From Rhizobium sp. Q54 (lineage in GTDB: Bacteria > Pseudomonadota > Alphaproteobacteria > UBA2966 > CAIVPW01), in contig CAMEYM010000009.1 of NCBI GenBank assembly GCA_945947575.1, positions 1-64,000 on the forward strand: 64,000 bases of DNA, in the 5' to 3' direction. The notes under the pieces are model-generated. The model saw only the letters and a list, made by a program, of their open reading frames with translations. It was not told where the DNA came from and made no database searches. A program made the position numbers and the translations under genes. Shown here one piece after another: positions 14,114 to 19,730 of the stretch. Position 1 is the stretch's first letter, and every line of letters starts with the position of its first letter.

Positions 14114-14755
14114 TCAGGCCTTTACGGTCGTGTCGGCGTAGCGCTCGATCATTGCCGCCATCTCGTCGAGCTTGCCCTCGAAGAAATGGTCTGCGCCGGC
14201 AATCGTCTTGTACTCGACGCCGATGCCGCGCTGCGCCTTCAGGCGGTTGGCGAGCTTGTTGACGTCGGGCTCCGGCACGACCTCGTCGCCGGTGCCCTGG
14301 ATGATCAGGCCGGAGGACGGGCAGGGCGCCAGGAAGGCGAAGTCGTAGATGTTCGCTGGCGGCGCGACCGCGATGAAGGCGTTGATTTCGGGCCGCCGCA
14401 TCAGGAGTTGCATGGCGATCCAGGCGCCGAACGAGAAGCCGCTCACCCAGGTGTGTGACGCGCTCGGGTGGTAGGTCTGCAGCCAGTCGAGGGCGGCGGC
14501 CGCGTCGGCGAGCTCGCCCTGGCCGTTGTCGAAGGTGCCCTGACTCTTGCCGACGCCCCGGAAGTTGAAGCGCAGCACGGCGAATCCCGAGCGCGCCAGC
14601 GCGTGGAAGATGTTGTAGACGACCTTATTGTTCATCGTGCCGCCGAAGCGCGGATGCGGGTGCATGACCAGCGCAACGGGAGCGGTGGCGGTCGCCGCCT
14701 TCTGGTAGCGGGCCTCGATGCGGCCTTCGGGTCCGTTGATGACGACTTCGGGCAT
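14114..14755 (-). CDS. Alpha/beta-hydrolase, COG2945-like
   Basis: This 213-residue hydrolase has the nucleophile elbow GFSFGAW, an oxyanion-site region [14 protein letters not shown] and a C-terminal [11 protein letters not shown] with the catalytic histidine. It resembles the COG2945/dienelactone-hydrolase-like family; the substrate is unknown. I prefer the ATG at 14755, where the conserved [17 protein letters not shown] begins, over a longer frame rich in arginine. It ends 10 nt before tyrS begins and is probably transcribed with it. Its upstream region carries IscR-like palindromes. Confidence 0.82.
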
Positions 14756-14807
14756 GCTCAAACTTTCTGGGCGCGCGCGGCGTGGCCGGCGGGCTGCCAG
14801 AGCCAAA

Positions 14808-14828
14808 ATCCGACTCTGTTAGTTCAGT
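14808..14828. promoter_or_regulatory. IscR-like palindrome, distal
   Basis: GACT-CTGTT-AGTT (14812-14824) is close to the core of the E. coli type 1 IscR site, GACT-N5-AGTC, with one mismatch. On the other strand it reads AACT-AACAG-AGTC-GG and closely resembles the proximal site 56 bp away, in inverted orientation. It lies between the hydrolase start and the cysE-isc promoter, so it may act on either. Confidence 0.5.
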
Positions 14829-14865
14829 TTACGTCGCTCAGGAGCCACAGCCTGGGCTCGCAAAC

Positions 14866-14893
14866 TTGACTAACCAGGTCGGACAACTAAAAT
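14866..14893 (+). promoter_or_regulatory. Isc operon promoter overlapped by an IscR-like site
   Basis: TTGACT (14866-14871) and TAAAAT (14888-14893) are 16 bp apart and form a good housekeeping promoter about 190 nt upstream of cysE. The -35 element and spacer contain GACT-AACCA-GGTC (14868-14880), one mismatch from the GACT-N5-AGTC core of type 1 IscR sites. A bound IscR would block polymerase, which fits autoregulation of the operon. Confidence 0.6.
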
Positions 14894-15091
14894 CCAAACG
14901 TAGGGCCAAGTCCTTGGCCGGGTTCTGGCGCGCGCCAGGATGGCTGGCCTCGGGGCGACTCGCTGGATGGCGCCGGACGGCGCCGTCACAACGAGAAGCG
15001 GCTTATATCATATCTCGGCAGGCGGCGATCAAGCACAGCGGCCGGGTCGGCGCGCGGAGTGCGCGGCAAATAAGCGGGAGCTGGCGGCGCC

Positions 15092-15808
15092 TTGGCATTC
15101 GAGACCGTACGCAGCGATATCGCAGCGATCTTCGAGCGCGACCCCGCGGTGCGGTCGCTGCCGGAGATTTGGCTGAGCTATCCCGGCTTCCACGGCGTTC
15201 TGATCCACCGCCTGACCCATCGCCTGTGGCGGGCGCGATGGCGGCTCCTGGCGCGCATGCTTTCCAATGTGGGGCGGCTCTTTACCGGGATCGAGATCCA
15301 TCCCGCTGCCAAGATCGGCAAGGGCTTCTTCATCGACCACGGCAACGGCGTGGTCATCGGCGAGACCGCCGAAATTGGTGACAACGTCACCCTCTATCAC
15401 GACGTTACCTTGGGCGGCATCGCCCCGGCCGTCGACTCGGCCTCTCAGGTCAACGTAAAGCGCCATCCGACCCTACGGGACGGCGTCATCATCGGCTCCG
15501 GCGCGCAAGTGCTGGGGCCGATTGTCATTGGCGAGAACGCGCGCGTCGGCGCCAACGCCGTCGTGCTGAAGGACGTTCCGGCTGGCGCCACCGTCGTCGG
15601 CATCCCGGCGCGGGTCGCGATGACCCGGCGTGATCGCGACGCCCATTTCGAGGCATACGGGACATCGCGCGACGAGGTTCCCGATCCCGTGGCGCGCGTC
15701 ATCGAAGGTCTGCTGGACCAGATCGAGTCGTTGCAGGCGCGCGTCAACAAGCTCGAAGGCACCACCGTCCCCGAGCGCTGGAAGGTGCCGGCGGACAACA
15801 AGGACTAA
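15092..15808 (+). CDS. cysE: Serine O-acetyltransferase
   Basis: A 238-residue enzyme that acetylates L-serine, the committed step to cysteine. The left-handed beta-helix of hexapeptide repeats is clear ([20 protein letters not shown], then [20 protein letters not shown]), with the catalytic HDVTLGG segment. A short N-terminal helical part and an extended C-terminal tail with a coiled-coil stretch complete it. The start is TTG with GGGAG upstream. It heads the isc operon, so cysteine precursor supply is coupled to the desulfurases downstream. Confidence 0.92.
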
Positions 15809-15858: not shown

Positions 15859-16347
15859 ATGAAACTTTCTTCACGAGGCAGATACGCGGTGATGGCGATG
15901 GCTGACCTCGCCATTCACAGCTCCGACCGGCCGGTATCCCTGGCCGAGATCGCCGAGCGCCAAGAGATCTCGCTCTCCTACCTCGAGCAGCTGTTCGGCA
16001 AGCTGCGCCGCAACCACTTGGTGCGCAGCGTCCGCGGCCCGGGCGGCGGCTACAAGCTGGCCCGCGTCGGTGAGGAGATTCGCGTCGCCGACATCGTCGT
16101 CGCGGTCGATGAGCCGCTCAGCGCCACGCGCTGTCGTCCAGGCTCCGCTACTGGCTGCCATTCCTCGCGCGGCCGCTGTTTGACCCACGATCTCTGGGAA
16201 GAACTCGGCAACCAGATCCACCTCTACCTCAGCTCCGTTTCCCTCGCCGACGTCGTCAACCGCCGTGTCCTTGGCACCAGCGGCCTGCTGGCGCGCGCTG
16301 CGCTCGCCCGCTTCGAGCCGCGTCCGGAGCCGGTTCCGGCCGAGTAG
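15859..16347 (+). CDS. iscR: Fe-S cluster regulator IscR (Rrf2 family)
   Basis: The 162-residue Rrf2-family protein has an N-terminal winged helix (MKLSSRGRYAVMAMADLA at the start, then RGPGGGYKLAR) and the [2Fe-2S] site Cys92, Cys100, Cys107 with His110, in a C-x7-C-x6-C spacing slightly wider than the C-x5-C-x5-C of E. coli. With a cluster bound it represses isc transcription when Fe-S supply is adequate. Two IscR-like palindromes lie at the operon promoter, suggesting autoregulation. It is 50 nt after cysE. Confidence 0.93.
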   Translation: MKLSSRGRYAVMAMADLAIHSSDRPVSLAEIAERQEISLSYLEQLFGKLRRNHLVRSVRGPGGGYKLARVGEEIRVADIVVAVDEPLSATRCRPGSATGCHSSRGRCLTHDLWEELGNQIHLYLSSVSLADVVNRRVLGTSGLLARAALARFEPRPEPVPAE

Positions 16348-16352
16348 GGGCG

Positions 16353-17540
16353 ATGGACTCCCGCTGGACATACCTCGACTACAACGCGACCACCCCGGTG
16401 CGGCCGGAGGTGTTGGCGCGTGTGGCCGAAGTCATGACCGTGGGCGGCAATCCATCGTCCGTCCACCGCTTCGGCCGCTTGGCGCACGCCTTCATCGACC
16501 GGGCGCGGGAGTCGGTCGCGGAGCTGGCCGGCGCCGATATGGAGCAGGTCGTCTTCACCAGCGGCGCCACAGAGGCGAACGCCCTCGCCCTGCGCAGCCT
16601 GGCGCGCCACGCCGCTCCCGGCGGCCGCGCCTGGGGCGCGAGCCGGGTGCTGATCTCCGCCATCGAGCACGACTCGGTGGTTGGCTCCGCCCATGCTCTC
16701 GATCTTCCGGTGGAGACCGTTCCGGTCACCGCGGACGGCGTCATCGACCTCGCGGCGCTAGAGCAGATGCTGGGCGCTGGCGGCACGGCCGTCCTGGCGC
16801 TGCAGCTCGCCAACAACGAGACCGGTGTCATCCAGCCGGTGGCCACCGCGGCCGAGCTCGTGCATGCGGCCGGCGGCGTTCTCCATTGCGACGCGGTGCA
16901 GGCCGCCGGACGCATTCCCATAGATTTCCCGGCGGTTAGCGCCGACACCCTGGTTTTGTCGAGCCACAAGATGGGCGGACCCGCCGGTGCCGGCGCGCTG
17001 CTTGCGCGCGAACTGAGCTTGCTATCGCCGATGCTGATCGGCGGTGGTCAGGAGCGCGGATTGCGCGCTGGGACCGAAAACGCCGCGGCGATTTCTGGCT
17101 TCGGACTGGCGGCGGATCTCGCCGCTGCCGACCTCTCCAAGGCAAGCGATATCAGTATTTTGCGGGACGATCTTGAATCCAGATTGAAGGTCATGGCGGC
17201 GGGCGTGCGGGTGTTTGGCACCGGCTCGGCGCGCCTTCCCAACACCTCCTGCTTCGCCCTCGGCGGCCTCGACAACGAGACCCAGGTCATCGCCCTCGAC
17301 CTCGCCGGCGTGGCGGTGAGCGCCGGTGCGGCCTGCTCGTCGGGCAAGGTCGCCGCGTCGCGGGTGCTGCGCGCCATGGGCGTGCCGGAGAGTCTCGCGC
17401 GCGCCGCCATTCGCGTCAGCATCGGCTGGGCCACGACCCGCGCCGACATAGATCGTTTCTGCGCTGCATGGTCCGAGTTCGTGACGCGCCAGATGGCGCG
17501 CGCCACCGGCACCGCGCGCTTTGCCGCCGCCGCGCACTAG
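16353..17540 (+). CDS. Cysteine desulfurase, NifS/IscS-like paralogue
   Basis: A 395-residue PLP enzyme that removes sulfur from cysteine. The PLP lysine is Lys206 in SSHKMGGPAG and the active-site cysteine is Cys328 in AACSSGK. It starts 6 nt after iscR and is followed at once by a second, standard IscS. It is shorter and more alanine-rich than IscS and lacks the C-terminal tail that docks IscU. It may serve another sulfur acceptor or act as a second donor; the sequence does not decide. Confidence 0.88.
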   Translation: MDSRWTYLDYNATTPVRPEVLARVAEVMTVGGNPSSVHRFGRLAHAFIDRARESVAELAGADMEQVVFTSGATEANALALRSLARHAAPGGRAWGASRVLISAIEHDSVVGSAHALDLPVETVPVTADGVIDLAALEQMLGAGGTAVLALQLANNETGVIQPVATAAELVHAAGGVLHCDAVQAAGRIPIDFPAVSADTLVLSSHKMGGPAGAGALLARELSLLSPMLIGGGQERGLRAGTENAAAISGFGLAADLAAADLSKASDISILRDDLESRLKVMAAGVRVFGTGSARLPNTSCFALGGLDNETQVIALDLAGVAVSAGAACSSGKVAASRVLRAMGVPESLARAAIRVSIGWATTRADIDRFCAAWSEFVTRQMARATGTARFAAAAH

Positions 17541-17549
17541 GTAAGAGAC

Positions 17550-18827
17550 ATGGCAACCAAGACCCAAGAAGGCACCAAGACCGTGCAAGCCAAGGAACCG
17601 GCCACCGCGCGTAACATCGCGCTGCCGATCTACCTCGACTATCAGGCGACCACGCCGACCGATCCGCGCGTCGTCGAGGCGATGCTGCCGTACTTCACAA
17701 CCAAGTTCGGCAACCCGCACTCGCGCAACCATTCGTTCGGCTGGGAAGCGGAGGAGGGCGTCGAGACGGCCCGAGCCCAGATCGCCGCCCTGGTCGGCGC
17801 CAACGACAAGGAGATCATCTTCACGTCGGGCGCGACCGAGTCGAACAACCTCGCCATCAAGGGCGTCGGCCGCTTCTACAAGGATCGCCGCAACGAGATC
17901 GTCACCGTCGTGACGGAGCACAAGTGCGTGCTCGACGCGTGCCGCCACCTCGAGGAAGAGGGCTTCAAGGTTACCTACCTGGCAGTGAAGCAGAACGGTC
18001 TCGTCGACCTCGACCACCTGCGCCAGGCGGTCACCGACAAGACCGCGCTGGTGTCGGTCATGGCGGTCAACAACGAGATCGGCGTCGTTCAGCCGCTCAA
18101 GGAGATCGCTGCCATCGCCCACGAGAAGGGCGCGTTCTTCCACACCGACGCCGCCCAGGCGGCCGGCAAGATCCCGCTCGACGTCGAGGACATGCACATC
18201 GACCTGATGAGCATCTCTGCCCACAAGATGTACGGCCCGAAGGGCATCGGCGCGCTCTACGTGCGGCGCAAGCCGCGCGTGCGCCTCCACGCACTCATCC
18301 ATGGCGGCGGCCAGGAGCGCGGCATGCGTTCCGGCACTCTGCCAGTGCCGCTGATCGTCGGGTTCGGCAGGGCAGCGGAAATCGCCAAGAACGAGATGGC
18401 CAAGGACAACGAGCGCATCCGGCGCCTGTCCGACCGCCTCTTCAACGGCATCAACAAGCAGCTGAAGGACGTCGTCCTTAACGGCGACCGTGAGGCTCGC
18501 TTCCCCGGCAACCTCAACCTGAGCTTCTCGTACGTCGAGGGTGAGTCGCTCATGATGGGCATCCGCGACATCGCGGTGTCGTCAGGTTCGGCTTGCACCT
18601 CCGCCTCGCTGGAGCCGTCGTACGTGCTCCGTGCTCTGGGTGTTGAGGAAGAGATGGCCCACACCTCGATCCGCTTCGGGATCGGCCGGATGACGACGGA
18701 GGCCGAGATCGACTACGCGATCGAGACCATCGTTAAGCACGTGAAGAAGCTGCGCGAAATGAGCCCATTGTGGGAAATGGTCCAGGAAGGGATCGACCTG
18801 AAGTCGATTCAATGGTCCGACCACTAG
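17550..18827 (+). CDS. iscS: Cysteine desulfurase IscS
   Basis: The 425-residue enzyme donates persulfide sulfur for Fe-S cluster assembly. The PLP lysine is Lys226 in [10 protein letters not shown], and the mobile active-site loop carries Cys349 in [10 protein letters not shown]. The C-terminal end ([11 protein letters not shown]) matches the IscU-docking tail of E. coli IscS. A roughly 25-residue N-terminal extension before [12 protein letters not shown] is longer than in E. coli. It sits between the paralogous desulfurase and iscU. Confidence 0.95.
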
Positions 18828-18910: not shown

Positions 18911-19342
18911 ATGGCGTACGGCGAGAAGCTCATCGATCACTACGAGAACCCGCGCAATATCGGGGCGATGGACAAGCATGCTACCGACGTGGGCACCGGC
19001 CTTGTTGGCGCGCCGGCCTGCGGCGACGTCATGAAGCTGCAGATCAAGGTGAGCGCCGAGGGCATCATTGAGGACGCCAAGTTCAAGACCTTCGGCTGTG
19101 GCTCGGCGATTGCATCGTCGAGCCTCGTCACCGAGTGGGTGAAGGGCAAGACGCTGGATGAGGCCGAATCGATCAAGAACACCCAGATCGCCCAGCACCT
19201 GGCCCTGCCGCCGGTCAAGATTCACTGCTCGGTGCTGGCCGAGGACGCCATCAAGGCCGCCATCGCCGACTATCGCAAGAAGTCGGGCAAGCCTGGCGCC
19301 GCCCACGTGAACGCCGAACCCGCGAAGGTCGCGGCCGAGTAG
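18911..19342 (+). CDS. iscU: Fe-S cluster scaffold IscU
   Basis: A 143-residue scaffold on which IscS, Fdx and iron build [2Fe-2S] clusters. The cluster ligands are all present: Cys37 and Asp39 (PACGD), Cys63 (GCGSA) and Cys106 (IHCSVLAEDA). The LPPVK motif recognised by the chaperone HscA is at 99-103. The C-terminal tail is slightly longer and lysine/alanine-rich. The 83-nt gap after iscS holds a GGGAGCGGAG ribosome site. Confidence 0.96.
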   Translation: MAYGEKLIDHYENPRNIGAMDKHATDVGTGLVGAPACGDVMKLQIKVSAEGIIEDAKFKTFGCGSAIASSSLVTEWVKGKTLDEAESIKNTQIAQHLALPPVKIHCSVLAEDAIKAAIADYRKKSGKPGAAHVNAEPAKVAAE

Positions 19343-19394: not shown

Positions 19395-19730
19395 ATGGCA
19401 ACGCCGGTCATCACCATCACCGACTCCGCCGCCAAGCGCGTTGCCGCGATGCTCGCGGACCGCGGCAAGCCGAGCCAGGGCGTCCGCATTGGCGTGCGGA
19501 CCGCCGGCTGCTCCGGCCTCTCGTACACCCTCGAGTTCGCCGACGAAGTGCAGTCGCAGGACGAGGTGGTGCAGGACAAGGGTGTCACCGTCTACGTCGA
19601 TCCCAAGGCCACCATGTTCCTGGTCGGCACCGAAATGGACTTCGTCGAGAGCGATTTGCAGTCCGGGTTCGTCTTCAAGAACCCGAACGAACGCGCCCGC
19701 TGCGGCTGCGGTGAGTCGTTCCACGTCTAG
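19395..19730 (+). CDS. iscA: A-type Fe-S carrier IscA
   Basis: The 111-residue carrier holds the three conserved cysteines, Cys39 (AGCSGLSY) and Cys103/Cys105 (CGCGESF), that bind iron or clusters in the dimer. It accepts clusters from IscU and passes them on, especially to [4Fe-4S] proteins. It lies in the canonical place between iscU and hscB. Confidence 0.95.
   Translation: MATPVITITDSAAKRVAAMLADRGKPSQGVRIGVRTAGCSGLSYTLEFADEVQSQDEVVQDKGVTVYVDPKATMFLVGTEMDFVESDLQSGFVFKNPNERARCGCGESFHV

Follow-up and report, generated by a model that had tools for sequence, protein, structure and literature searches.

Two IscR-like palindromes lie 56 bp apart upstream of a cysE-isc operon in Rhizobium sp. 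Q54, one at the promoter and the other beyond it, which raises the question of what the distant copy does: does it serve the isc promoter, the divergent hydrolase gene on its other side, or neither? IscR serves as the model for sensing of iron-sulphur supply, and the way in which it converts cluster status into operon output is best understood in gammaproteobacteria. We addressed the question in the window, the whole 64,000-nt stretch of contig CAMEYM010000009.1 that was analysed, and in the corresponding loci of related bacteria.

The cysE-isc locus and its IscR protein

Both boxes lie between a hydrolase gene on the minus strand and an operon with the order cysE-iscR-nifS-like-iscS-iscU-iscA on the plus strand. 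The divergent alpha/beta hydrolase gene (14114–14755, minus strand, ATG at 14755) matched Pfam Peptidase_S15, Hydrolase_4 and Abhydrolase_1 above cut-off; its mechanical open reading frame begins further up, with a TTG at 14806. A divergent relative of this gene was present upstream of (cysE-)iscR in all 205 alphaproteobacterial loci examined. The first gene of the operon, cysE (15092–15808, plus strand; serine O-acetyltransferase, TIGR01172, 234 bits, above cut-off), has a TTG start that is a mechanical call. It is followed on the same strand by iscR (15859–16347), a regulator of the Rrf2 family (Pfam Rrf2; PDB IscR 4hf1, E 8.4e-37), and then by iscS (17550–18827; TIGR02006, 698 bits, above cut-off), iscU (18911–19342; TIGR01999, 224 bits, above cut-off) and a gene for an iscA-like A-type carrier (19395–19730; TIGR00049 above cut-off, with the best match, TIGR02011 (IscA), below cut-off). 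Genes resembling hscB and hscA, assigned by appearance only, come next after the isc genes. A second cysteine desulphurase gene, NifS/IscS-like (16353–17540, plus strand; TIGR03402, 321.7 bits, below cut-off), is placed between iscR and iscS. Among the named loci whose IscR proteins are closest, a large number carry the label Rhodospirillales or Rhodospirillaceae, and the Rhizobium label of Rhizobium sp. Q54 may be wrong.

The IscR protein has an Rrf2 fold and aligned to the PDB structure 4hf1. Read from the translation, it contains S40 and E43, which we take to be the recognition residues, and C92, C100, C107 and H110, presumably the three cysteine ligands and one histidine ligand of the cluster (E. 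coli numbering); E43 is presumably also the negative charge that bears on half-site preference below. Against TIGR02010 it scored 191.7 bits and did not reach the cut-off of 207.55, though this was its best-scoring NCBIfam family, and among the three TIGR02010 matches in the genome it was the strongest. The ligands are spaced more widely than those of E. coli IscR, which are C92, C98, C104 and H107.

Two IscR-like boxes and their spacing

The proximal box (AAACTTGACTAACCAGGTCGGACAA, 14862–14886, plus strand; half-sites TT/CC) lies over the -35 of the cysE-isc promoter. The two palindromes of the first-pass annotation, GACT-CTGTT-AGTT (14812–14824) and GACT-AACCA-GGTC (14868–14880), are each one mismatch from GACT-N5-AGTC and separated by 56 bp, as had been claimed. 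The second was said to cover the -35 of a good promoter, and it does share TTGACT with the -35 hexamer (14866–14871, plus strand) of TTGACT-N16-TAAAAT, whose -10 hexamer occupies 14888–14893 on the same strand. This was the sole promoter-like match reported between 14700 and 15150 by a consensus scan that permits spacers of 16–18 only (shuffled sequences gave a mean of 0.1), and it would place the isc transcription start at about 14900. The proximal box shows the features of a type-1 operator, namely a palindrome with a GAC-N7-GTC core, TT in one half and CC in the other, and it overlaps the predicted promoter of an Fe-S operon. Going by the box itself and by studies of E. coli, Pseudomonas, Rhodobacter and Caulobacter, ordinary autorepression by holo-IscR is very likely here: IscR carrying a [2Fe-2S] cluster would cover the -35 and exclude RNA polymerase, and as clusters become scarce it would leave the box, so that the operon is expressed.

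A 96-genome search supplied the 30 loci, that of the window among them, whose IscR proteins are closest. The 25 that lie outside the window's genus were used, with the window unseen, to train a box model by expectation-maximisation on the region from the hydrolase gene to the next gene. The resulting motif, TTACCCGACTAAATTAGTCAAGTAT, reached a log-likelihood of 329, against 76–89 in five shuffled sets given fewer starts. In a scan of the 64-kb window, the top rank went to the proximal box (32.5 bits) and the second to the upstream box (AAATCCGACTCTGTTAGTTCAGTTT, 14806–14830, minus strand; half-sites CC/TG), centred 56 bp from it (19.3 bits). If a shifted reading of the proximal box (16.0) is set aside, the next-best match scored 9.8 bits. 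As a positive control, the untrained E. coli iscR promoter was matched twice, with 30.8 and 28.3 bits and 25 bp apart, at what we take to be the footprinted sites A and B.

The larger set comprised 205 alphaproteobacterial loci picked by IscR similarity, that is, close IscR relatives and not a random sample of the class. Removal of 19 loci as near-duplicates or with less than 60 bp between genes left 186 non-redundant loci, and 20 more were removed for a main box below 15 bits, leaving 166; the 25 training loci are among the source set. Counts quoted are those of this largest set, smaller spacing analyses having used 30 loci and then 107/116. A main box of at least 15 bits was present at the isc promoter in 166/186 loci, with the logo ATACTTGACca...TAGTCGGgcAtccTATAT over the 166, in which the TTGAC of the -35 is visible. 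The half-sites were CC/TT, the type-1 form, in 142/166, and TT occupied one half in 166/166, as the -35 requires it and the oriented model that picked the boxes favours it. Further IscR-like boxes were seen downstream of the main box, at +28 to +30 (13) and +69/+70 (4), counted without a null.

An upstream box of at least 6 bits was found between -140 and -20 in 64/166 loci, against a mean of 1.0 and a maximum of 3 in 20 trials with resampled sequence, and was missing in 102. The 64 distances from the main box took few values: -55 to -57 (45 loci), -66/-67 (7), -76 to -80 (9), and -89, -101 and -25 (one each), with no others. Eighteen of the 19 boxes outside -55 to -57 lay near -67, -77, -89 or -101, which correspond to whole helical turns. 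Without a threshold, the best upstream site fell at -55 to -57 in 77 of the 166 loci, at -66 to -68 in 10 and at -76 to -79 in 15. A palindrome-constrained motif search, confined to the upstream region with the main box excluded and independent of the first model, yielded tA.CCgAc.a...t.gTcGG.Ta, estimated to occur in 75% of the 166 loci, with a log-likelihood of 374 against 71–86 in four controls given fewer starts; 70 of its 117 sites of at least 6 bits were at -55 to -57.

A phase test on 18 hits (-55 to -57 and -25 omitted) gave a best period of 10.9 bp, matched by 0 of 20,000 random sets; the probability was 0.001 on unique distances and 0.011 on the four cluster centres, all of these values being too small because the loci share ancestry and presence of the box clusters on a quick IscR tree (at least 39 changes, where shuffled labels averaged 51.8). 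Within the window's genus, the spacings were 56, 56, 55 and 78, with a degenerate copy at 67 in G004, that is, zero, one or two turns; the upstream palindrome of G004 lacks one base and scores -4.3. The upstream box is positioned rather than random. Chance as the origin of the palindrome was ruled out by its rank in the window, by the 64 hits against a null of 1.0 and by the motif found de novo; frequency, fixed position and phase are far above those in resampled sequence. Conservation upstream of isc in relatives, against which the first-pass annotation had proposed to check the palindromes, held for both sites: the proximal one in 166/186 loci, the upstream one at a recurring, phased distance. 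Its description of the two as inverted to each other is correct for the window and does not extend to the family, where 41 of the 64 upstream boxes face one way and 23 the other.

The upstream box of the window has a nearly complete core and one imperfect half (CC/TG). Across the 64 loci, the upstream half-sites were CC/CC in 26, CC/CT in 15 and CC/TT in 9, as read by a symmetric model that weights C and T near-equally. The consensus of type-2 operators is CC-xYA-N7-TRx-GG; the upstream consensus, CC-GAC...GTC-GG, keeps N13 between CC and GG without the YA/TR bases and does not fit this pattern. A contrast came from 40 loci belonging to other classes of the same phylum, presumably beta- and gammaproteobacteria: 30 carried one or more boxes of 6 bits no further than 350 nt from iscR, and pairs were 25–31 bp apart in 14, 54 bp in one and 55–57 bp in none.

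Elsewhere in the genome, a loose box pattern had 21 matches against 9 for a reversed control, and the best model score in four other loci with this pattern (L038, L050, L056 and L062; 3 kb each) was 1.8 bits. A second pattern gave two further places, with 10.5 and 7.0 bits (L295 and L296), and 4 both-strand matches against 2 in the control. We claim no second IscR target in the genome from these scans, which are insensitive, the second pattern missing the main box itself.

A probable facing promoter for the hydrolase gene

A conserved plus-strand element, attATAtCATA, is followed 16 nt later by CAAG, and on the minus strand the two read TTGNNN-N19-TGNTATAAT. In the window, they correspond to an extended -10 (TGATATAAG, 15002–15010, minus strand), invariant in 5/5 genus members, and a -35 TTGATC (15027–15032, minus strand), with conserved CAAG offset, across a 19-bp spacer, forming a probable hydrolase promoter that faces the isc promoter. 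The consensus promoter scan missed 15002–15032 because it permits spacers of 16–18 only. The element was present in 84/122 cysE loci (2–6 in five resampled sets) and in 18/43 non-cysE loci.

In 70 of the 102 loci with the element, TATATCATA lies 20–22 nt before the cysE start, and where it so adjoins that start, CAAG coincides with early cysE codons in 59/70. Away from the cysE start, CAAG keeps its constant offset in 17/32 loci, including five genus members, and the other 15 have no CAAG at that offset. We rejected TATATCATA as a cysE translation signal, and a minus-strand promoter fits it better, because the CAAG distance is kept when the element is elsewhere (9/14 cysE loci and 8/18 non-cysE loci). 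It was also rejected as a repeated genomic element, with only one exact match in the window genome. Transcription of the hydrolase gene probably begins from a promoter of its own at 15002–15032, facing the isc promoter; the predicted start, near 14995, precedes the hydrolase ATG by some 240 nt. With starts at about 14900 and 14995, the isc and hydrolase transcripts would have 5' ends that overlap for about 95 nt, and both IscR boxes would lie within the hydrolase leader.

A similar arrangement has been mapped in R. sphaeroides. In the parts of that study covered here, the isc-suf promoter P2 carries an IscR box at -36 to -19, with which our hexamer-inferred box-to-start distances agree (PMC6956336). 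The promoter P5 of the hydrolase gene RSP_0444 was mapped between P2 and iscR, facing P2, and yields an antisense transcript that covers the first 28 nt of iscR mRNA; P2 activity rose with a P5 fragment carrying 88 nt of upstream sequence but not with one carrying 112 nt (PMC6956336). R. sphaeroides thus resembles the window in an IscR box at the isc promoter and a facing hydrolase promoter, probable in our case, and differs in having suf genes downstream and no cysE (PMC6956336, same parts). No second box at -56 was found in any of 10 Rhodobacteraceae-like loci. The Rhodobacter P1 box was rejected as a homologue of the upstream box, as it lies 174–198 bp upstream of the main box in 9/10 loci, where the IscR-like sequence is apparently inside the hydrolase gene.

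The first-pass annotation suggested that the divergent hydrolase gene may share the control of the isc promoter. A box over the hydrolase gene's own promoter would not provide this, given the probable promoter at 15002–15032; only a transcript crossing the boxes could. Shared control through the boxes is possible and is not the default expectation, in view of the probable facing promoter and the P5 findings in R. sphaeroides.

Possible roles of the upstream box

Both boxes, with their sequence, conservation, spacing and phase, are features of the locus. The explanation that we favour, and consider somewhat probable, is that two IscR operators, kept on a fixed face of the helix, cooperate in autorepression, which would be a variant of a known system. 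The upstream box would act as a second operator, placed on that face 56 bp away or at a distance longer by one or several turns, and a second IscR dimer bound there would most likely strengthen repression by touching the first across short bent or looped DNA. Most likely the hydrolase gene would be transcribed from its own facing promoter, with a leader crossing both operators. IscR binding at both boxes, the cooperation and the direction of the effect are predicted here from sequence comparison. Strengthened repression is favoured because the spacing to the proximal box takes only helically related values, because hardly any boxes occupy the nearer activator registers and because repression is what known type-1 promoters undergo; counting against two operators, a fixed helical face would also fit an activator site at about -83. 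Weighing against them too are the 102 loci with no upstream box of 6 bits, the 10 Rhodobacteraceae-like loci with none at -56, the base lost in G004, the imperfect half of the window's box and the dissimilar Caulobacter motif.

Known systems offer partial precedents. The E. coli iscRSUA promoter, like the one here, has two inverted type-1 boxes upstream of iscR (presumably those named A and B), both found by the alphaproteobacterial model; unlike here, the boxes are adjacent, 25 bp apart instead of 56, and no cysE lies between promoter and iscR. According to PMC6599224, the two E. coli sites are bound by IscR independently of each other, and the P. aeruginosa isc promoter has abutting sites A and B, at -18 to -42 and -43 to -67, the upstream one with only a minor role in repression. 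Cooperation is therefore not to be assumed. The P. aeruginosa promoter also combines a primary site over the promoter with a second, there weaker, site upstream (PMC6599224), whereas here a gap of about 30 bp separates the boxes and relatives display a series of helical-turn spacings. For Caulobacter crescentus, the covered parts of PMC11475020 report an IscR peak over the -35 of an isc-suf operon that is induced by iron starvation. IscR at the -35 of the isc operon is also what we predict for the window, whose box the Caulobacter ChIP-seq Type I motif does not resemble, and those parts of PMC11475020 describe no paired operator. In the open-access literature covered by our search, no alphaproteobacterial pair of IscR operators 56 bp apart, with variants longer by whole turns, was described. 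Autorepression through type-1 sites is known already, as are IscR sites in pairs, and what appears new is this 56-bp pair with its variants.

Alternatively, the upstream box could be an activator site whose CC-rich halves bind apo-IscR, with class I recruitment from about -83 (-94, -104), so that, with clusters running out, IscR would stop repressing its own operon and start to activate it. We regard this as unlikely, although several observations are in line with it. The inferred centres of -83, -94 and -104 are in the class I register, as for CRP. CC/CC (26) and CC/CT (15) predominate among the 64 upstream boxes, against CC/TT in 142 of the 166 main boxes, and the upstream box may be less cluster-dependent, because the TT half-site marks sites avoided by cluster-free IscR. 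Type I sites are marked by TT in one half-site, and a negative charge in the protein acts in favour of CC and against TT (PMC8561392); the Caulobacter motif bound more strongly under iron depletion is also CC-N13-GG (PMC11475020). However, the nearer class I registers, at box distances of about -35 and -46, are without any 6-bit box in the 166 loci, and the palindrome-constrained search puts only 3 and 2 of its 117 sites there; a slight rise does show in the mean profile of the 166 loci, at -35 and -43 (z 2.4 and 2.0). The window's own box, moreover, is CC/TG.

It is improbable, in our estimation, that the upstream box belongs to the hydrolase gene, with bound IscR blocking the hydrolase promoter or transcript. 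The 45 boxes at -55 to -57, selected by that distance, do lie 23–80 bp before the hydrolase start codon (sd 13.5), the gene is divergent in every one of the 205 loci, and with a facing promoter its leader would contain both boxes. The distances to the hydrolase start are, however, spread, whereas the spacing to the isc box takes few values, and the conserved minus-strand promoter is on the far side of the boxes. In Rhodobacter, P5 was affected by OxyR alone among the regulator mutants tested, whether an iscR mutant was among them being unstated in the covered parts of PMC6956336. That only the proximal box matters, its upstream counterpart being in decay or having arisen by accident, is very improbable: the 102 loci without a 6-bit box, the imperfect box of the window and the single-box promoters that seem enough in Rhodobacteraceae-like loci are in keeping with it, but frequency, fixed position and phase far exceed those in resampled sequence.

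The recurrence of a second operator at 56 bp plus whole turns would point to contact between distant IscR dimers or between IscR and RNA polymerase. Gammaproteobacterial paired IscR sites are side by side, whereas the alphaproteobacterial pair is distant. A two-state switch, in which cluster-loaded IscR alone would recognise the proximal TT/CC box and empty IscR, too, would recognise the CC-rich upstream box, held to one helical face, seems doubtful to us; if true, it would mean repression when clusters are plentiful and, otherwise, activation or an IscR parked ready to repress again, an IscR promoter logic that would be specific to alphaproteobacteria.
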